From positions 1 through 31,344 of IMG/VR virus record IMGVR_UViG_3300030380_001620: DNA of 31,344 bases. One strand, given 5' to 3'. The notes under the pieces are model-generated. The model had not been told where the DNA came from. It did not search any database and saw nothing but the letters and a program-made list of their open reading frames with translations. Source of the DNA: a virus. Position numbers and translations under genes: made by a program. This document shows, in pieces, positions 2,923-29,965 of this stretch (positions are counted from its first letter, which is position 1; each line of letters begins with the position of its first letter).

Positions 2923-4422
2923 ATGGGCTTGTTTGATTTTCTAATACCACAAAGACAAGCCGATATAGAATTAGTTAAGCGTGGTAGGAAAAGACGCAGA
3001 AGTTACGCTGGAGCTAATCAGGGTAGATTATTTAGTGATTTTATTGGTTCTAGTTCATCAGCAGATAGTGAGTTACGTGCAAGCTTACCTGTTTTACGTA
3101 ATAGAAGCCGTGATTTAGCTAGAAATAATGAATATGCAAAAAGATTTCTTAACCTAATTAGAACCAATGTAGTCGGTGAAAAAGGCTTTACGCTACAGGT
3201 TAGAGCTACAAATGATGATAGATCATTAGACGCTGCTGGTAATACAATTCTAGAAAATGCGTTCAAGGCTTGGGGAAGATTAGGTAATTGTGAAGTAAGT
3301 GGGCGTATGTCTTGGTTGGATTGCCAAAGATACGTTTGTGAGACATTAGCGCGTGATGGTGAAGTATTTATAAAGTTTGTGCAAAATAGACGATTTAGAG
3401 ACGGTTTTGCATTGCAGTTTATTGAAGCTGAACTCATTGACCAAGATAAAAATGGTAAAGCAGCAAATGGTAACCAGATTAGAATGGGTGTGGAGCTAGA
3501 TGAATATCATAAGCCAGTAGCATATTATGTTCTTACGGGACATCCAAATGATACATTGAATTTTGCAGTAGGCGCTGAACGCAAGCATATACGTGTACCA
3601 GCCAATGAAATATTACATTTATTCATACAGAATAGGATGCACCAGACTAGAGGTGAACCGTTTATGTCTCCAGCAATAGCATCATTAAAGATGTTGCATG
3701 GATATAGAGAAGCTGAGTTAGTTGCTGCTAGGGCTGCGGCTGCTAAGTTTGGTATCATTACCACTCCAGATGGTGATGAGTTTGTTGGTGATGATGAAAC
3801 AGATGATGAAGTGCCTGTAATTGATATGGCTCCAGCTTCTGTTTATCAGTTACCATCGGGGCATGATTTTAAGATGATTGATCCAGCCCATCCAACTTCT
3901 GCATTCGCTGAATTTGAACAGGCCGTATTACGCGGTATCGCGTCTGGTTTAAACGTATCTTATACAAGCTTATCAAATGATCTAAAGGGTGTTTCTTATA
4001 GTTCTATACGTCAAGGCACAATTGAGGAACGCGATCATTACAAAACACTACAATCATATATAATAGAACACTTTTGTGAGCCAGTATTTAGAAACTGGTT
4101 AGGAAGTGCTTTGTCTTTTGGTGATATACCAATACCAATATCTAAGTATGATAAATTTGCTGATAACTTGCATTTCCGTGGCCGTGGCTTTGCTTGGGTT
4201 GATCCACAAAGAGAAATTAATGCTCACGTTACAGCATTATCTAACGGTATTGTAAGCATGAATGATATAGCCGCAAATTATGGAAGGGATGTAGAAGAAT
4301 TATTTAGCCAGATAGCTTCTGACAAAGAAATGGCTGAAAGATATGGCCTATCGACTGCATTTGAACCCTTTGGGGCAAAAGCACCTGTTCAACCAGAAGT
4401 AAGTGACGCAGATGAGCTATAA
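2923..4422 (+). CDS. Portal protein, lambda GpB type
   Basis: The 499-residue protein forms the dodecameric ring at the head vertex through which DNA enters and to which the tail attaches. Its N terminus has the lambda-portal pattern of a basic stretch and then LRNRSRDLARNNEYAKRFLN (about residues 58-77), followed by NVVGEKGFTLQ and later a GVSYSSIRQGTIEERDHYK segment (about 363-381), all characteristic of lambda-type portals. It starts one base after the upstream stop, and its 3' end overlaps the capsid fusion gene by 11 bases, so the two are probably translationally coupled. Length is typical (about 500-530). Confidence 0.97.
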   Translation: MGLFDFLIPQRQADIELVKRGRKRRRSYAGANQGRLFSDFIGSSSSADSELRASLPVLRNRSRDLARNNEYAKRFLNLIRTNVVGEKGFTLQVRATNDDRSLDAAGNTILENAFKAWGRLGNCEVSGRMSWLDCQRYVCETLARDGEVFIKFVQNRRFRDGFALQFIEAELIDQDKNGKAANGNQIRMGVELDEYHKPVAYYVLTGHPNDTLNFAVGAERKHIRVPANEILHLFIQNRMHQTRGEPFMSPAIASLKMLHGYREAELVAARAAAAKFGIITTPDGDEFVGDDETDDEVPVIDMAPASVYQLPSGHDFKMIDPAHPTSAFAEFEQAVLRGIASGLNVSYTSLSNDLKGVSYSSIRQGTIEERDHYKTLQSYIIEHFCEPVFRNWLGSALSFGDIPIPISKYDKFADNLHFRGRGFAWVDPQREINAHVTALSNGIVSMNDIAANYGRDVEELFSQIASDKEMAERYGLSTAFEPFGAKAPVQPEVSDADEL

Positions 4423-7060
4423 ACCAACAGAAGGAATGATAACAGAAGCCCAGCGCGGTTTAGATTGGCGATCTGAGCATGGTAGAGGTGGTACGGCTGT
4501 AGGAATTGCCCGTGCTAGGGATATTGTTAGTGGTAAAAATCTATCAGAAGATACTGTTTTACGCATGTTTTCATTTTTTAGTCGGCATGAAGTCGATAAG
4601 CAAGCGGAAGGATTTGAGCAAGGTGAAGAAGGTTACCCATCTAACGGACGTATAGCTTGGGCTTTATGGGGCGGTAATGCTGGGTTTACTTGGTCAAAGA
4701 ATATACGGGATAGAATTAAAAAAGATGAAACTAGGGCTGTAACTGATGCAGTTCGTAAAGGTTTAGCTAAGAAAGCAGAAGATCATAATGAAGATGTTGG
4801 TAATGTTGCGTCTAAACGTACTACCACTAGAACTCTAATATCGGTATTTAATCGCGGTATTGGTGCATATAAGACTAATCCACAAAGCGTAAGACCTAGC
4901 GTTAAATCGCCTGAACAATGGGCTTATGCCCGTGTCAACAGTTATTTATATGCTTTGCGGAACGGTAAATTTAGAAGTGGCAAGCATGATACTGATTTAC
5001 TTCCATCAGGTCATCCGATGTCATCAAAGAAAAGGGATGTTACAATGGATGAAAAAAATGATACAATTGATCTAAATGAAAAAGGGTCTGAGCCAATGAA
5101 AAAGCGTCATGTTATAAACATAGAAGAAACTGAAGAAGCTTATATTGTTACTTTTGCCAAGCCTATGAATGAGCAAAGTGTAGAAGAAGCTCCGACAGAA
5201 GAAGAAAGATTTGTACGTGAAGATATGGAAAAACGCGGCCATTACATGGATGAAAAGGCCGTGGATATTGATGAAAGACGTGTAAAAGTCGGTGTATCTA
5301 CAGAAGAACCTGTAGAAAGATCATTTGGAATGGAAGTTATAGACCATTCCAGTGATAGTATGAATTTAGACTTTCTGAATAGTGGTCGCGCTCCATTATT
5401 ACTTGACCATGATATGGAAAAGCAAATTGGCGTGATTGAAGGAGTTGAACTTGATGAAGATGCTCGGCGTCTACGAGCAATGGTTCGTTTTGGAAAAGGT
5501 GGACTAGCTTCAGAAGTGTTCAATGATGTTACTGATGGCATCAGACAAAACATCAGTGTAGGCTATCGAATTGATGGCCGAATAAAACGTGATGATGACC
5601 CTGAAGAATACTACAGGGTTGCTACCACACCAATGGAAATTAGTATTGTTAGTGTACCAGCAGATCAGTCAAGTCTTGTTGGTGTCGGGCGATCAGTTCC
5701 AGCAGAACCCTTAACTCAAACATCTGAAGGAGATGAAGTTATGACTGAAGAAGTCAAAAATAACATCGATCTTGACGCGGTTAAAGCTGATGCAGTTCGA
5801 GCCGCAAGAAAGAACGATGCTGAAATCTTGGCATTAGCAGCCAAGCATAATAAACGCGACTTAGGTAATGAAGCAATTGCAAGCGGTATGTCAGTAGACC
5901 AATTCCGTGGTAATTTGCTTGATGCTATTGGTGATAAGCCACTAGACATTGCACCAGCACAAGTTGACGCTCCAGTAAAAGAGCAAAAGAGTTATTCTCT
6001 TGGTAGAATGATCCAAGCTCAAATTACTGGTGATTGGCGTAAGGCTGGGTACGAGCGTGAAATCAATGATGAAATAGCCACACGTGTTGGCCGCGATGCA
6101 GAAGGTGTTTATGTGCCTGATTTTGCATGGGGGCAACGAGGGCCATTATCAACAGCAGCTACTGGCGGTTCAGGTGCAGAAGTTGTATTTGATGATTTCG
6201 TACCAACTGAACACCGTAGTGATATGTTCATTGAGGCGCTACGTGCTAGACAAGTTCTAGGCGGTCTAGGAACAACTTACCTAAGTGGTCTAACCAACAG
6301 AATAAAAATGCCAAAACTAGCAACTGGAGCTAATGCTGCATTTGTAGAAGAATTAGCAGATGTTGGCGATGGTGCTGGTACAGACGGTGGAGTTACATTG
6401 CAGCCAAGAACAATGGGTGCATTTGTTGATATGTCACGTTTGTTAATGTTGGAAAGTGTACCAGCTATTGAGCAAATAATCAGAAATGACTTACTTGCTT
6501 CAGCAGCCGACAGAACTGAATTTTATGCAATTCAGGGTTCTGGTTCAGGTGGTCAACCAACAGGTATTTTAAATACATCTGGCGTAAATGATCTAGACAT
6601 TTCATCAGGTACTGATGTTGATAGCCTTACATGGGCTGACATCATCAACCTAGTGAAGTTGGTTGAAGAAGATAATGGAATAGTCAATGGTAATGCTGCT
6701 GGCTTCCTATCACATCCAGCAGTTAAAGCTAAACTAGCTTCAACAGCTAAAGTATCTTCAACTGATAGCGTTATGATCTTGAATGACCCGTGGAATAACC
6801 TTTACGGCTATCCAATGGGCTTCACATCAAACGTACCAACAACACTAGATCCAGGTGATGGTGGTAATGACGCTTCAGCATTGATCTTTGGTGACTTTAG
6901 CCAGTTGATGATTGCTCAGTTTGGCGCTCCAAGCATCTTAGTTGATCCATTCAGTGGTTCAAAAGCTGGAACTGTGAGAATGGTTCTACACGCTGAACTA
7001 GACGTAGGTGTGAGAAACGCTGTAAGCTTTGGTATCACTAATGAGGTATCAGTAGCTTAA
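4412..7060 (+). CDS. Fusion of accessory domains, prohead protease, scaffold and HK97-fold major capsid protein
   Basis: One open frame of 882 codons holds what are usually two or three genes. Residues 1-~105 form a domain with RSEHGRGGTAVGIARARDI and RIAWALWGG; residues ~140-210 form another with GAYKTNPQSVRPSVKSPEQW. I recognise both as phage domains of unclear function. Residues ~285-420 are an HK97-type prohead protease: LLLDHD with His333 and NISVGY with Ser382 fit the catalytic His/Ser. Residues ~444-515 are a charged helical scaffold (delta) region. From ~517 to the end is an HK97-fold capsid protein (YSLGRMIQAQITGDW, GVYVPDFAWG, GQPTGILN). ATG 4412 is preferred to GTG 4403. Internal ribosome-binding sites at 5031 and 5727 could release protease and capsid modules separately. 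A GC hairpin follows the gene. Confidence 0.93.
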   Translation: MSYKPTEGMITEAQRGLDWRSEHGRGGTAVGIARARDIVSGKNLSEDTVLRMFSFFSRHEVDKQAEGFEQGEEGYPSNGRIAWALWGGNAGFTWSKNIRDRIKKDETRAVTDAVRKGLAKKAEDHNEDVGNVASKRTTTRTLISVFNRGIGAYKTNPQSVRPSVKSPEQWAYARVNSYLYALRNGKFRSGKHDTDLLPSGHPMSSKKRDVTMDEKNDTIDLNEKGSEPMKKRHVINIEETEEAYIVTFAKPMNEQSVEEAPTEEERFVREDMEKRGHYMDEKAVDIDERRVKVGVSTEEPVERSFGMEVIDHSSDSMNLDFLNSGRAPLLLDHDMEKQIGVIEGVELDEDARRLRAMVRFGKGGLASEVFNDVTDGIRQNISVGYRIDGRIKRDDDPEEYYRVATTPMEISIVSVPADQSSLVGVGRSVPAEPLTQTSEGDEVMTEEVKNNIDLDAVKADAVRAARKNDAEILALAAKHNKRDLGNEAIASGMSVDQFRGNLLDAIGDKPLDIAPAQVDAPVKEQKSYSLGRMIQAQITGDWRKAGYEREINDEIATRVGRDAEGVYVPDFAWGQRGPLSTAATGGSGAEVVFDDFVPTEHRSDMFIEALRARQVLGGLGTTYLSGLTNRIKMPKLATGANAAFVEELADVGDGAGTDGGVTLQPRTMGAFVDMSRLLMLESVPAIEQIIRNDLLASAADRTEFYAIQGSGSGGQPTGILNTSGVNDLDISSGTDVDSLTWADIINLVKLVEEDNGIVNGNAAGFLSHPAVKAKLASTAKVSSTDSVMILNDPWNNLYGYPMGFTSNVPTTLDPGDGGNDASALIFGDFSQLMIAQFGAPSILVDPFSGSKAGTVRMVLHAELDVGVRNAVSFGITNEVSVA
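5031..5047 (+). promoter_or_regulatory. Internal ribosome-binding site and in-frame ATG ahead of the protease module
   Basis: AAAGGG (5031-5036) lies 8 bases before ATG 5045, which is in frame with the capsid fusion and sits between the N-terminal accessory domains and the protease domain. It could start a shorter protease-capsid product. This is a plausible but untested internal start. Confidence 0.4.
5727..5743 (+). promoter_or_regulatory. Strong internal Shine-Dalgarno and in-frame ATG for separate scaffold-capsid product
   Basis: AAGGAG (5727-5732) stands 8 bases before ATG 5741, ideal spacing. The ATG is in frame with the fusion gene and falls exactly at the protease/scaffold junction (codon 444). 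Initiation here would give a 439-residue delta-plus-capsid protein, the normal size of a stand-alone HK97-type capsid precursor. This would supply many capsid copies per protease copy. Confidence 0.6.
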
Positions 7061-8509: not shown

Positions 8510-8854
8510 ATGACACTTGCAAAACGTATCGCAGCTAAAAGAGCTGATAAAGAACGCGGTCAAGTAGATATTGAAGAATGGGGCGAGGATGATAAGCCCC
8601 TTACCCTATTCTTTAATTATATTACAGCCCGTGATATTGAATTTCTACAGCGTAAAAATAAAGACTTTCTGACTAATCCCACAATGTCAGGAATGGTAGA
8701 ATTAATAATTAGAAAGTGTGAAGATAAAGATGGTGAAAAGGTTTTCACACTAGAAGATAAACCTGTTTTAATGGGTGAAACTATTGGAACTATAGCTGCT
8801 GTATTTGGCGCTATATTTGAAAACATTACAGCCGAGGAACAGGAAAAAAACTAA
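8510..8854 (+). CDS. Tail assembly chaperone, G-like product (zero frame)
   Basis: The unshifted 114-residue product (MTLAKRIAAKRADKERGQVD...) is a helical tail assembly chaperone that would coat the tape measure protein before tube polymerisation, equivalent to lambda gpG. The gene lies between tube and tape measure genes, the invariant location. Its last codons before the TAA are GAA AAA AAC, forming an A AAA AAC slippery site, so a fraction of ribosomes should continue in the -1 frame to give the longer form described separately. Confidence 0.85.
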   Translation: MTLAKRIAAKRADKERGQVDIEEWGEDDKPLTLFFNYITARDIEFLQRKNKDFLTNPTMSGMVELIIRKCEDKDGEKVFTLEDKPVLMGETIGTIAAVFGAIFENITAEEQEKN

Positions 8855-9003
8855 GGAGCGATCCATTTAGATATAGTCTCATTTCACTTGCTGAACACTT
8901 GGGAAAGACAATATCAGAAATTGAAGAAATGACATATTCAGAATATAATGAGTGGGTCGCTTATTTTAAAATAAAAGAGGAACGGGAAAAGAATGGCCAC
9001 TGA
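8510..9003 (+). CDS. Tail assembly chaperone GT-type fusion by programmed -1 frameshift
   Basis: Ribosomes slipping back one base on A AAA AAC (8845-8851) bypass the TAA at 8852 and read 50 more codons from CTA 8851 to the TGA at 9001-9003, giving about 164 residues. The added segment contains RYSLISLAEHLGKTISEIEE and then YSEYNEWVAYFKIKEEREK. That is the usual look of T-type chaperone domains (short helical domain with LA..LG.t..E......E...W.AYy). It lacks a good start codon and ribosome-binding site of its own. The T segment overlaps the tape measure start (8993) by 11 bases. In lambda the analogous gpG/gpGT pair is also made by -1 slippage and both forms are needed in a fixed ratio. Confidence 0.88.
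8845..8851 (+). other. -1 ribosomal frameshift site A AAA AAC
   Basis: The heptamer fits X XXY YYZ in the zero frame (GAA AAA AAC, then TAA). The adjacent stop codon and a long open -1 frame ending inside the tape measure start support a programmed -1 shift. Confidence 0.88.
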
Positions 9004-23111: not shown

Positions 23112-23654
23112 ATGCAAGATAACTGGAAAATGTTTTTCGATATGCTGATTAAACATGAAGGTGGCTTCCAAGATGACCAGCGTGACAGCGGAAATGCTAA
23201 AGGTGACGGGCATGGCAATGAGGGTTCTACTATGTGGGGCGTTACAGCTTGGAACTGGGCTAAATACACGGGCAAAGCAGCGCCTAAAGATGTTATGAAA
23301 GCGTTGACAAAAGAAGATGTTAAGCCGTTATACAAAAAGAATTACTGGGATGTAGTAAAGGCCGATAATTTGCCGTCTGGAGTGGATATTAGCACTGCTG
23401 ATATGTGTGTTAATGCTGGGCCTAGTAGAGCGGCAAAGATACTGCAAAAGGCTACTGGTGGGCTTACTGTGGACGGTGCGATAGGTAAAATGACCATTGC
23501 AGCGGTGCATGACCGTGATCCAAAAGAAGTATTAGACAATTACTATTATGGCCGTCAAAAGTTCTATGAAAGTCTAGATGATTTCCAACACTATGGAAAA
23601 GGGTGGACAAGGCGTAATAAAGAGACGTTAGAATTAGCCTTGTCTATTGTTTAA
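23112..23654 (+). CDS. Endolysin, glycoside hydrolase family 108
   Basis: This 180-residue muramidase-like enzyme cuts peptidoglycan. It has the GH108 N-terminal motif KHEGGFQDD with the presumed catalytic Glu at position 16, followed by STMWGVTAWNW (residues 39-49), LYKKNYWDVVKADNLPSGVD and, in the C-terminal peptidoglycan-binding-like part, ILQKATGGLTVDGAIGK. Length is typical (about 170-190). It has no signal peptide, so it depends on the holin for access. It is the last rightward late gene and overlaps the convergent methyltransferase by 11 bases at its 3' end. Confidence 0.92.
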   Translation: MQDNWKMFFDMLIKHEGGFQDDQRDSGNAKGDGHGNEGSTMWGVTAWNWAKYTGKAAPKDVMKALTKEDVKPLYKKNYWDVVKADNLPSGVDISTADMCVNAGPSRAAKILQKATGGLTVDGAIGKMTIAAVHDRDPKEVLDNYYYGRQKFYESLDDFQHYGKGWTRRNKETLELALSIV

Positions 23655-24351
23655 AAATCATAGCCTGTTGTGTAGGTAATTCTTGTGTTTTTTCATTGCT
23701 AACGAATAAATCGGGTTGCCGCGTAGCTTCATCAACGCGCTTGCAAGCTATCTCAAAATAATCGGGGTCTAACTCAATACCCGTGCCTTGCCTGCCAAGC
23801 TTTTGACACGCAACTAACGTTGTTCCGCTTCCTAGAAAGGGGTCTAAAATTGTTGTGTCAGATAATGGTAGATGATTAATGCACCACTTAATAACGCCAA
23901 GCGGCTTTTGTGTTGGATGACTTCTTATATCTGAGCCTTTACGGATCATTCCGTGCCAACGCCAGTAAATACGTCTGACGGCTTTTTTTAGGTTAGTCCA
24001 AGCTAACTCGCAATCTGCAAAGTCAGTATTGCCGTTCTGTTTATCCCAAACAAGCCAACATGATGATGGGGGTAAATCATAATAATTACCTCCAAAAATG
24101 ATTTGTGATTTTGCAATTGTCCTTGCTAAACTAATATGTTCATCACAAGTTGATTTATCCCATTGATCTGATTTGTAATTTCCCACAGAGGCTTTTTTGC
24201 CTCTGCTTCTATTTTTGTCGCCTCCTTCGTTGATTCCGTAAGGAGGGTCAGTTACAACGGCATCAAATTTGCCAAGCAAGGGCATGACTTTTAAGCAATC
24301 GCCTAAGATAAGCCTTTGGTTTCCTATTCTTTCTTCTTTCAAGATAGCCAT
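23644..24351 (-). CDS. DNA methyltransferase, N6-adenine / N4-cytosine type (beta class)
   Basis: This 235-residue enzyme transfers a methyl group from S-adenosylmethionine to an amino group in DNA. It shows the catalytic DPPYG (35-39) first and the AdoMet-binding DPFLGSGTT (170-178) later, with HPTQKP (145-150) between: the beta-class order of solitary phage and Dam/CcrM-like enzymes. No restriction gene is nearby, so it is an orphan methylase, plausibly protecting phage DNA or tuning regulation. GGAGG precedes the start with good spacing. It is the promoter-distal gene of the leftward operon and runs into the convergent endolysin gene. Target sequence and adenine/cytosine preference cannot be read from the sequence. 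Confidence 0.95.
   Translation of the reverse strand: MAILKEERIGNQRLILGDCLKVMPLLGKFDAVVTDPPYGINEGGDKNRSRGKKASVGNYKSDQWDKSTCDEHISLARTIAKSQIIFGGNYYDLPPSSCWLVWDKQNGNTDFADCELAWTNLKKAVRRIYWRWHGMIRKGSDIRSHPTQKPLGVIKWCINHLPLSDTTILDPFLGSGTTLVACQKLGRQGTGIELDPDYFEIACKRVDEATRQPDLFVSNEKTQELPTQQAMIFKQ
24186..24218 (+). terminator. Candidate rightward terminator inside the methyltransferase gene (antisense)
   Basis: CAGAGGC (24186-24192), T6 loop, GCCTCTG (24199-24205), then CTTCTATTTTTG. On the rightward strand this is a perfect 7-bp stem followed by a T-rich tract. It lies about 530 bases beyond the endolysin, within the methylase coding region. No hairpin is seen nearer the late operon's end, so it may stop late transcripts. 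Confidence 0.45.
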
Positions 24352-26590: not shown

Positions 26591-27385
26591 ATGATAAACT
26601 ATGAACTTACAAACAGACAGTATCATAGCCGTCCAGAACTTAGCTCATCAGACGGCAAAGCTGTTGACCAGCAAAGCGTAAAGCACTGGAGAGCAAAGAA
26701 AGATAAACCCAGCGATCCAACACCAGCCATGATAAAAGGCAGTGCTGCACACGAACTAATACTCACACCAGAAGATAACACAATCATCAGAGGGCCAGAT
26801 ACAAGGCGCGGTAATGCGTGGAAAGAGTTGTTAGAGGATGCCAATGCAAAAGATCATCTTCTGCTTACCAGTGGCGATTACGATGAAGTACAGGCTATAG
26901 CAGATGCTGTATTAAGCCATGCTCCAGCAATCGACATAATGAACGAACCTGATGCCATGAAGGAAATCAGTATATTCAATGATGATCCAGATACTGGTTT
27001 ATCTTTACGTTGCCGTCCAGATTGGTACAGCCCAAGCAAACGCAGATTAATAGACATAAAAACAACTGTAGATGCTTCACCTGATTATGGTGGATTTGAA
27101 AAGCACTTTTACAAATACGGCTATGCGCTCCAATGTGCTTGGTATGAGCAAGTCTTATATAATGAAGGCTTACCCGTAGAAGAAATAATATTTATCACTG
27201 TGGAGAATACATATCCTTATTGTGTACAGAACTTTCGTATTCCATGGGATGTAATATCTTATGGCCGTGGACGGATGAGACGGGCGTTAGACAAAATCAA
27301 TCGGGCATATGAAGCTGAAAGATTTACCACTGGCTGGCCTGATGAAGCAATAATAGAACTACCTGACTACTTACAAGGAGAATAA
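26591..27385 (+). CDS. RecE-like exonuclease (PD-(D/E)XK superfamily)
   Basis: The 264-residue protein starts MINYELTNRQYHSRPELSSS (the Y......Y....lSsS pattern of RecE C-terminal-like nucleases), has IKGSAAHELILTPE with the usual His of the GxxxH motif (about 49-60), SLRCRPDWYSPSKRRLIDIKTT with metal-binding Asp residues and DxK (about 137-158), and GYALQCAWYEQVL (about 178-190) with the Q...Y motif. These are DNA 5'-3' exonucleases that prepare single strands for annealing. AAGGAG precedes the ATG. No classical annealing protein (Bet/RecT/Erf) is seen next to it; the SSB-like gene follows 1 base later. Confidence 0.88.
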   Translation: MINYELTNRQYHSRPELSSSDGKAVDQQSVKHWRAKKDKPSDPTPAMIKGSAAHELILTPEDNTIIRGPDTRRGNAWKELLEDANAKDHLLLTSGDYDEVQAIADAVLSHAPAIDIMNEPDAMKEISIFNDDPDTGLSLRCRPDWYSPSKRRLIDIKTTVDASPDYGGFEKHFYKYGYALQCAWYEQVLYNEGLPVEEIIFITVENTYPYCVQNFRIPWDVISYGRGRMRRALDKINRAYEAERFTTGWPDEAIIELPDYLQGE

Positions 27386-28171: not shown

Positions 28172-29965
28172 ATGGAAACGAAAAGCAAATACCCTACAGC
28201 ATATTGGGTTGAGTGGGGCGAAAAAATAATTACAGATTTGCAGCTTAAACAAACGGTAAAAGGTGAATATCATGGCAGTTGTGTCAATTGTGGCGGCAAA
28301 GATAGGTTCTGGATTAAGGACTATGACGGCAAAGTATCTGTCCATTGTCGGCAATGTAATGACTATCAGGCTATACAATCGGCTTTAAAAGCTATGCATT
28401 TGTGGCCGCAAGATGAAACCAATGATTATGACTTTCATAATATTAAGCCATTCAAGCCCGTTAAACAGCCTGTAGACCCAAGCCAGCCATATCACATCAG
28501 AAAAGGTATTAAGCTATATAATGCGGTCTTAGATAACGGTGATGTGCAATATAAAATCTATAATGTGGATGGTGACTGGGTAGGCTCACAAACAATATCA
28601 CCTAGTGGCAAAAAAGAATTTAGCACGGGCATGAAGATTGATGGTGTCTTTGGCTGGATGGGTGATAATCTAGAAGGGCTAGTCTATATCACTGAGGGCT
28701 ATGCAGACGCTTGTTCAGTGCATGAAAGCACGTCTAGACCCGTTATAAACGGCTTGAACAGCGGTAATATTCCCAAGGTAGTCAAAGCCGTAAAAGATAA
28801 ATACCCTAATCTGACGATCGTTCTGGCTGGCGATAATGACGCTGCTGGGCTGAAATGTGCTGAAAAGGCTGGTATCCCGTTTGTAGTACCAGCAGAGGAT
28901 GGCTTTGATTTTAATGATTTGCACCAAGCTAAAGGTGTCAAAGCTGTAGCAGAACGGCTGAAACAAGTTAAGTTACCCAAGCCATTATGGTCTAAAATCG
29001 GTGATCTTGAACTGAAAGAACCTGAATGGATAATAGACGGCATATTGGAAAAGAACGCTTTAGTGTGTGGCTTTGGCGCTCCAGCGGCTGGTAAGACGTT
29101 TGTAATGGTTGATATGGCGCTCTGTGTTGCGTCAGGAACGCCTTATCATGGCCGTGATGTAGATGGTGGAACAGTCTTTTACATAGCTGGAGAGGGTCAT
29201 AACGGCTTTGTCAGACGGTGTAAAGCTTGGGCTAAACATAATAAGACACCAATTGATGATATACCGTTTTTTAAATCTAATCGCTCAGTGGTGATGAATG
29301 ATGAAAAAACAGTAGAGCAAATGTTTAGCACAATAAAACAATTATCTGAGGAGTTTGGTCAGCCTAAGTTAGTGGTGATTGATACCCTAAATAGATCAAT
29401 GGGTGGCGATGAAAACAGTACAAAAGATATGTCGATGTTTATTCAATCAGTAGATAAAATAGCTGATGAATTTGCTTGCACAGTGCTTGTAGCGCATCAT
29501 ACAGGGCATGGAACAAAAGATAGGGCTAGAGGTTCATCAGCTTGGCTTGGCGCTCTGGACGCTGAATTTCAGGTGCAAAAGGTAGGTGAGTTTGATACAC
29601 ATATAAAGTTTACCAAAATGAAAGACGCACCTGAACCAAAGCCATTAGCCTTTATTAAACATCAGGTTGAGCTAATGACTAAATCTATGAAATCGGTGAC
29701 CTCATTGGCGTTGGAGAATGTGGAATATAATGAAGCGACTAAAGATGATCCTGAAGAAATCGTGATGGAAACAGTCCAACATATAGCAGAACATTCTGGC
29801 GAAAAATGGGTAGATCAGGCGGCTTTGAAGCTGGAAATTGCCATTTCCAAGGGTGTTACTAAAAAGACTGTTCACAATTGGATAGCTGGAATGGTGGCTG
29901 GAAATAAGCTTTCCAAGCGTATAGATGAGAAAAATCAATCTAAACAATGGGTTGCTATACCGTGA
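28172..29965 (+). CDS. Bifunctional primase-helicase (TOPRIM + RepA-like AAA ATPase)
   Basis: The 597-residue protein starts replication by making primers and unwinding DNA. An N-terminal zinc ribbon (C37, C40, C59, C62) is followed by a TOPRIM primase region: ITEGYADA with E175 and AGDNDAAG with D221/D223. A RepA-like helicase domain follows, with Walker A GAPAAGKT (302-309) and Walker B VVIDTLN (401-407), then HHTGHG (about 436) and a C-terminal winged-helix-like segment (about 530-590). No DNA polymerase is encoded, so the host replisome must extend. The ATG at 28172 has no clear Shine-Dalgarno; translation may be weak or leader-dependent. Confidence 0.93.
   Translation: METKSKYPTAYWVEWGEKIITDLQLKQTVKGEYHGSCVNCGGKDRFWIKDYDGKVSVHCRQCNDYQAIQSALKAMHLWPQDETNDYDFHNIKPFKPVKQPVDPSQPYHIRKGIKLYNAVLDNGDVQYKIYNVDGDWVGSQTISPSGKKEFSTGMKIDGVFGWMGDNLEGLVYITEGYADACSVHESTSRPVINGLNSGNIPKVVKAVKDKYPNLTIVLAGDNDAAGLKCAEKAGIPFVVPAEDGFDFNDLHQAKGVKAVAERLKQVKLPKPLWSKIGDLELKEPEWIIDGILEKNALVCGFGAPAAGKTFVMVDMALCVASGTPYHGRDVDGGTVFYIAGEGHNGFVRRCKAWAKHNKTPIDDIPFFKSNRSVVMNDEKTVEQMFSTIKQLSEEFGQPKLVVIDTLNRSMGGDENSTKDMSMFIQSVDKIADEFACTVLVAHHTGHGTKDRARGSSAWLGALDAEFQVQKVGEFDTHIKFTKMKDAPEPKPLAFIKHQVELMTKSMKSVTSLALENVEYNEATKDDPEEIVMETVQHIAEHSGEKWVDQAALKLEIAISKGVTKKTVHNWIAGMVAGNKLSKRIDEKNQSKQWVAIP

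Follow-up and report, generated by a model that had tools for sequence, protein, structure and literature searches.

A phage protease-scaffold-capsid fusion gene with a putative nested start and an exchangeable N-terminal slot

A 31,344-nucleotide stretch of viral DNA (IMG/VR virus record IMGVR_UViG_3300030380_001620, positions 1 to 31,344; hereafter the window) encodes in one 882-residue frame two N-terminal domains, a prohead protease, a helical scaffold, and a capsid protein, and carries a conserved in-frame start codon behind a strong Shine-Dalgarno (SD) sequence at the protease/scaffold boundary. Translation of this marine phage gene probably begins at two or more sites; most shell subunits would then lack residues 1–443, and the 882-aa protein, which bears the protease, would probably be the less abundant form. 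In related phages, whole modules come and go ahead of the protease between proteins that are otherwise >97% identical. Taken as a whole, an explanation that combines an internal start, an exchangeable N-terminal slot, and a protease-bearing minor isoform is in our judgement fairly probable.

Domain architecture of the fused frame

The polyprotein ORF (4412..7060, on the plus strand, as are all features of this gene) runs from ATG 4412 to a stop codon at 7058–7060 and encodes 882 aa (96 kDa); counted from an in-frame GTG at 4403, it comprises 885 codons. ATG 4412 overlaps the 3′ end of the portal gene (2923..4422, plus strand), and its own SD is weak (−2.3 kcal/mol). The gene series in the window runs from the small and large terminase through the head-tail joining protein, portal, and polyprotein ORF to the connectors and tail, which is the order found in isolated CRP-822-type roseophages (PMC12629253). 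Elsewhere in the window, a tail assembly chaperone ORF (8510–8854) has the slippery sequence A AAA AAC at its end, after which the −1 frame continues as LRSDPFRYSLISLAEHLGKTISEIEEMTYSEYNEWVAYF... (8844–8996), the expected programmed frameshift of the lambda G/GT type. The window also holds genes resembling a DNA methyltransferase (23644–24351, minus strand), exonuclease VIII (26591–27385), and a primase-helicase (28172–29965).

Within the frame, a domain here called Dom1 (residues 1–107; 4412..4732) and a DUF5824 module (residues 110–206; 4739..5029) precede an S78 prohead protease (residues 285–425; 5264..5686), a helical scaffold or delta-like domain (residues 444–576; 5741..6139), and the predicted mature HK97-fold capsid protein (residues 577–882, 31.7 kDa; 6140..7057). 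An earlier note on this DNA had described a four-part polyprotein with two accessory domains; the content and order hold, but the parts listed there number five and not the four of its title. The protease matches PF04586 (S78 protease) over residues 325–423 with 38.1 bits (cut-off 21), and H333, S382, and E409, the presumed protease residues, are invariant in all 38 non-redundant relatives. The capsid matches PF05065 (HK97 capsid) over residues 600–873 with 103.3 bits (cut-off 24.2), and the frame thus holds the S78 protease and HK97-fold capsid that define protease/capsid fusion proteins. The curated model NF045541 scores 132.5 bits over residues 284–514 only, below its cut-off of 525 bits, and the window protein is a relative of this model rather than a member. 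The scaffold was placed by its homology position together with a low-confidence helix prediction.

Residues ~1–107 match part of phrog_2859, of unknown function (E 5e-30). PF19141 (DUF5824) matches residues 131–193 with 25 bits, equal to its curated cut-off of 25, and with 28.3 bits in a second search; the match spans only profile positions 61–121 of 127, and homology in relatives extends over residues ~110–206. Dom1 is predicted to be all-helical, and the DUF5824 module is predicted to be helical and is basic (pI 10.2). The structure prediction proposed in the earlier note gave a confident helical model of the two domains (pLDDT 89) but no significant match to a solved structure: in comparisons with the PDB no Foldseek match fell below E 1, and the best VIA Z was ~5. 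A DNA-binding or sigma-like role for the two domains is not claimed from these structures, as the similarity to sigma region 2 is weak (Z ~5) and under the chance level for helical models. A PDB profile search with the N-terminal alignment returned only chance matches to keratin coiled coils. Predicted viral proteins with a matching fold include prohead proteases, XkdF-like proteins, and portals, and a single-sequence search of bacterial genomes with Dom1 recovered three phage-like loci, all of them Dom1-protease-capsid fusions. No mention of DUF5824 was found in the searchable literature, outside which most subscription journals lie.

Candidate internal starts

ATG 5741 (Met444) is in frame, lies exactly on the protease/scaffold boundary, and follows an AAGGAG SD (5727..5732) located 8 nt before it, with a duplex energy of −8.6 kcal/mol. 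The predicted nested gene (5741..7060) would encode a scaffold-capsid protein of 439 aa and 46.3 kDa, made up of a ~133-residue helical scaffold and a ~306-residue capsid. Among the 46 listed in-frame ATG, GTG, and TTG codons of the gene this SD is the most stable, and few of the window's gene starts that were scored have a better one. Across 38 relatives and 25 conserved columns of start-like codons, residue 444 is an outlier, its SD having a median of −9.3 and reaching −6 or lower in 97%. When 99 non-redundant protease-capsid fusions are considered, the boundary start codon is ATG in 98 and GTG in the remaining one (L076). An SD of −6 or lower stands before 69 of the 98 boundary ATGs (70%), compared with 125 of 1726 other in-frame ATGs (7.2%) and 75 of 1152 in-frame ATGs that follow polar peptides (6.5%), an enrichment for which Fisher p-values are not literal probabilities because the sequences are related. 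The boundary SD is found in all three codon phases, where the encoded peptides differ (EGDEV, MEDVT, KEKD, QRSDP, and IEVKT). Every member of the CRP-822-type set retains Met444 (100%), in a linker that averages 55% amino acid identity. Among proteobacterial phages with fused protease-capsid genes, the boundary Met is also present in VP882 (where its SD ranks first in the gene), phiHAP-1, PPpW-3, Persinger, Alexa, RcSaxon, and others.

Synonymous-codon conservation upstream of Met444 lies z 2–3 above the gene mean, among the highest values in the gene, with a per-pair correction applied because the uncorrected test is open to inflation by close pairs; the other linker shows average values, and a portion of the protease coding region reaches the same high level. 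Single-sequence synonymous-recoding tests were mostly not significant (p 0.004–0.31), because acidic and lysine-containing linkers favour SD-like codons, and the case for the internal start therefore rests on the comparative pattern. Capsid genes of relatives with a separate protease gene alongside encode 408–414 aa, and the predicted nested product, with 439 aa, is comparable in length; its AlphaFold model had too low a confidence (pLDDT 47) for a structure search. In Dom1-bearing relatives, the signal of the full-length start can be strong (median best SD −6.6).

A conserved in-frame internal start with an SD at a domain boundary is the arrangement of a nested gene of the lambda C/Nu3 type. 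In lambda, the scaffold is nested in frame within the protease gene, and a minor full-length protease-scaffold accompanies a major scaffold made from the internal start. The predicted nested start of the window would resemble that of lambda, but the lambda capsid gene E is separate, whereas the predicted nested product of the window includes the capsid.

Given that the SD of Met444 is the strongest in the gene and is conserved, we infer that most shell subunits would start there. The implication of the earlier note, that each shell subunit is an 882-residue precursor shedding its first ~440 residues, is probably wrong in view of this SD, and the likely proteolytic site lies further on. Maturation cleavage is predicted at R576/G577 (6137..6142), where the Arg is invariant in 38 of 38 relatives, even across lineages with differing capsid N-arms. 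A cut near R576 is our best guess, and it would remove a scaffold of ~133 residues, as in HK97.

We propose that the start at 4412, beside the portal stop and with weak signals, would yield a minor 882-aa protein in which Dom1, DUF5824, and the protease sit on a scaffold-capsid tail, and that this tail would take protease and passengers along into the procapsid. Initiation at 5741, the strong internal site, would yield the main 439-aa scaffold-capsid protein, which would build the shell. Once assembly is complete, cleavage near R576 by the S78 protease would release the scaffold and also set the protease and the N-terminal region free inside the head. The segment from Dom1 to the protease would serve as a tolerated slot, through which passengers could enter the head in small numbers of copies; in other phages such delivery could likewise proceed via the C-terminus of the 12-copy portal.

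Alternatively, the gene could encode a true polyprotein, with all capsid subunits made as 882-residue precursors, residues 1 to ~576 removed by the protease, and the SD of Met444 left as a relic or as a by-product of acidic codons. The frame is uninterrupted in the 204 loci with protease and capsid in one ORF (all searches pooled; some loci share a contig), the protease would act in cis, and the cyanophages S-CBS1, S-CBS3, and S-LBS1 keep the boundary Met but have no SD there; together with the weak single-sequence recoding tests, these points agree with such a precursor. Against such a precursor stand the SD enrichment of 70% against 7%, its retention in different codon phases, the GTG that replaces ATG in L076, and a module length that varies by ~100 residues among near-identical phages. 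The volume of the head argues in the same direction. With procapsid inner radii of 22–19 nm, 415 copies of residues 1–575 would take up ~70–110% of the interior of a T=7 procapsid, such that the ~26 MDa of N-terminal protein from 415 full precursors would nearly fill or overfill it; the scaffold of the internal product would take up ~16–25%, close to HK97. This arithmetic, which rests on T=7 and on the radii used, supports the internal product as the main shell protein. The value T=7 was inferred from the 59–64 nm heads described in PMC12629253 and from R4C (PMC10276861). On balance, we consider it unlikely that all subunits are made as full-length precursors.

The nested-gene explanation may extend to a third start ahead of the protease, likely in many relatives and possible in the window. 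The candidate in the window is Met212 (5045..5047), with AAAAGGGA upstream (SD −5.2), or alternatively Met229 (5096; SD −3.8). A pre-protease start with an SD of −6 or lower is found in 41 of 79 relatives, in some with GTG instead of ATG, and the signal is thus strong in many relatives and moderate in the window.

The slot between Dom1 and the protease

Between Dom1 and the protease, relatives carry DUF5824, a Tudor-like domain (PF11160), an ‘RPYPNEH’ domain, or a cupredoxin-like domain, or have no insert, in each case ahead of the protease-scaffold-capsid core. Combinations include Dom1 followed by DUF5824, DUF5824 with RPYPNEH, DUF5824 with the cupredoxin-like domain, and Dom1-RPYPNEH-DUF5824-Tudor, while a few complete ORFs contain DUF5824 or cupredoxin without a detected Dom1; these orders derive from profiles built here, the loci overlap so that counts are not contig counts, and weak calls among the rarer orders may err. 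Whole modules are present or absent, with clean in-frame joins, among polyproteins that are 97–98% identical elsewhere, as seen for DUF5824 in the pairs L064/L049 and L069/L042 and for RPYPNEH in the pair L029/CRP-406; a further gain/loss pair, L261/L262, is 91% identical. The isolates CRP-406 and CRP-811 lack DUF5824, which is therefore dispensable for a viable phage of the CRP-822 type. Thus the N-terminal additions reported in the earlier note are present and recur in the same order, but they are not fixed parts: DUF5824 is an optional passenger, missing from near-identical proteins, and Dom1 is nearly always kept. The cupredoxin-like module inside the capsid polyprotein of L053–L058 (for example L053:4408–5600) ends in YFCLNHSGMG and is related to pieces of tail/baseplate proteins.

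In environmental phages of the HK97 type (L167, L141, and L143), Dom1 with or without DUF5824 also lies between the portal and protease coding regions, as in the window, but there the cassette forms the portal C-terminus (L167, L141), and the protease and capsid genes are separate. Portal, Dom1, and MuF are joined in L129 and L180, DUF5824 is attached to the portal in L254, and in L257 the Dom1 cassette is a separate 282-aa ORF directly ahead of the capsid ORF. From these fusions, L257, and the fold matches, it follows that the cassette tends to lie between the coding regions of portal and protease and can fuse with either of them; the portal C-terminus is its alternative partner.

Dom1 and DUF5824 also occur in other settings. 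In Pseudomonas phage PaBG (L090, 5001–5333), Dom1 stands alone as a 110-aa protein away from the head genes, with a putative RNA 2′-phosphotransferase and a topoisomerase as neighbours; Dom1 is therefore not exclusively a head protein. Vibrio phages L088 and L089 carry Dom1 at the N-terminus of a 657-aa coil-containing or a 258-aa protein, slightly upstream of the capsid gene. Actinomycetia phage DSL-LC01 (L086, 4767–9686) has three genes in a row that bear the annotation capsid maturation protease, with Dom1 in the first, followed by a separate capsid gene. DUF5824 lies inside an 848-aa hypothetical protein of Salinibacter phage 13_4 (L087, 4077–6623), and ~180 similar records place it in Salinibacter-phage proteins; Dom1 was not detected in any of these.

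Dom1 and DUF5824 might instead be structural assembly parts, that is, extra scaffold or shell components required for head building. Such a role would suit the retention of Dom1 in nearly all intact polyproteins of the window’s family and its position, in unrelated phages, beside genes for portal, protease, or capsid, but it sits poorly with the absence of DUF5824 from otherwise 97–98% identical polyproteins and from CRP-406 and CRP-811, and with the stand-alone Dom1 among the replication genes of PaBG. For the two domains together we find it quite improbable; Dom1 itself, apart from DUF5824, could be structural. Our best guess for the passengers is that they are head-interior or ejected cargo. 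Their placement on portal C-termini and proteases would put them inside the head at low copy, and their fast turnover would seem to resemble cargo more than core machinery. A more elaborate version, which is possible but doubtful, treats the N-terminus of the nested protease-bearing isoform as a dock for interchangeable cargo: passenger domains (DUF5824, Tudor-like, cupredoxin-like, or RPYPNEH), in a few dozen copies, would enter the head with Dom1, be freed by proteolysis, and then stay or be ejected to act on the host, with the same dock on the portal C-terminus elsewhere.

Relatives, known systems, and implications

The 882-residue frame described in the earlier note is genuine and not a product of sequencing error. 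It is unbroken in L001, L002, and L048, which are 98% identical to the window protein, and is kept in ~75 viral contigs that matched in a first scan and in six matching isolate genomes (CRP-406, -811, -821, -822, -823, and -831). An artefact, in which separate genes were joined by an overlooked stop or frameshift, draws on the separate protease and capsid genes of other relatives, but these are only more distant ones, and with ~75 independent contigs and six isolates sharing the frame it is already refuted for the family and has practically no probability. L060, in which the fusion ORF begins abruptly at residue ~295 (L060:5965) and the upstream region has no recognisable head genes, was rejected as a split gene and is probably a chimeric contig.

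On gene order and capsid similarity, the window belongs with the CRP-822-type roseophages, a group marked by gene order and related capsid, portal, and TerL; CRP-406, CRP-811, and CRP-821/822/823/831 have the same gene order and a fused gene that is ~42–82% identical (PMC12629253). That gene carries no annotation beyond ‘major capsid protein’; the words ‘protease’ and ‘fusion’ are absent from the main text of PMC12629253, where nested start and module exchange are undescribed. In the accessible parts of the respective papers, protease-capsid fusions are described for Pseudomonas phage MD8 (PMC8508860), Arthrobacter clusters AM, AU, and AN (PMC5513430), and Rhodobacter RcC (PMC8601537), the MD8 gene is proposed to contain protease, scaffold, and capsid (PMC8508860), and no internal start is mentioned. 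The known fusions (NF045541; VP882, phiHAP-1, MD8, Arthrobacter, and RcC) resemble the window in that an HK97-fold capsid and a protease share one gene. A strong SD likewise marks the protease/scaffold boundary of VP882, although VP882 and phiHAP-1, unlike the window, lack the N-terminal Dom1/DUF5824 region. HK97 gp4/gp5 offers a similar S78-type protease and a delta domain comparable to the ~133-aa helical scaffold ahead of the capsid in the predicted 439-aa product, but there the protease has a gene of its own, apart from that of the capsid.

The searchable literature, outside which most subscription journals lie, yielded no description of module exchange or of an internal start nested in protease-scaffold-capsid fusions, and both the nested start at the protease/scaffold boundary and the exchange slot appear to be undescribed so far. 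On the nested-gene explanation, most shell subunits behind these ‘major capsid protein’ annotations probably begin ~440 residues later, which would affect mass-spectrometry searches, structure work, and capsid phylogenies across the protease-capsid fusion class. In abundant marine phages, the slot marks a site in the head precursor where near-identical phages gain or lose whole domains and where these change partners between portal and protease, and it would offer a testable way to find new proteins of the virion interior or ejected ones.
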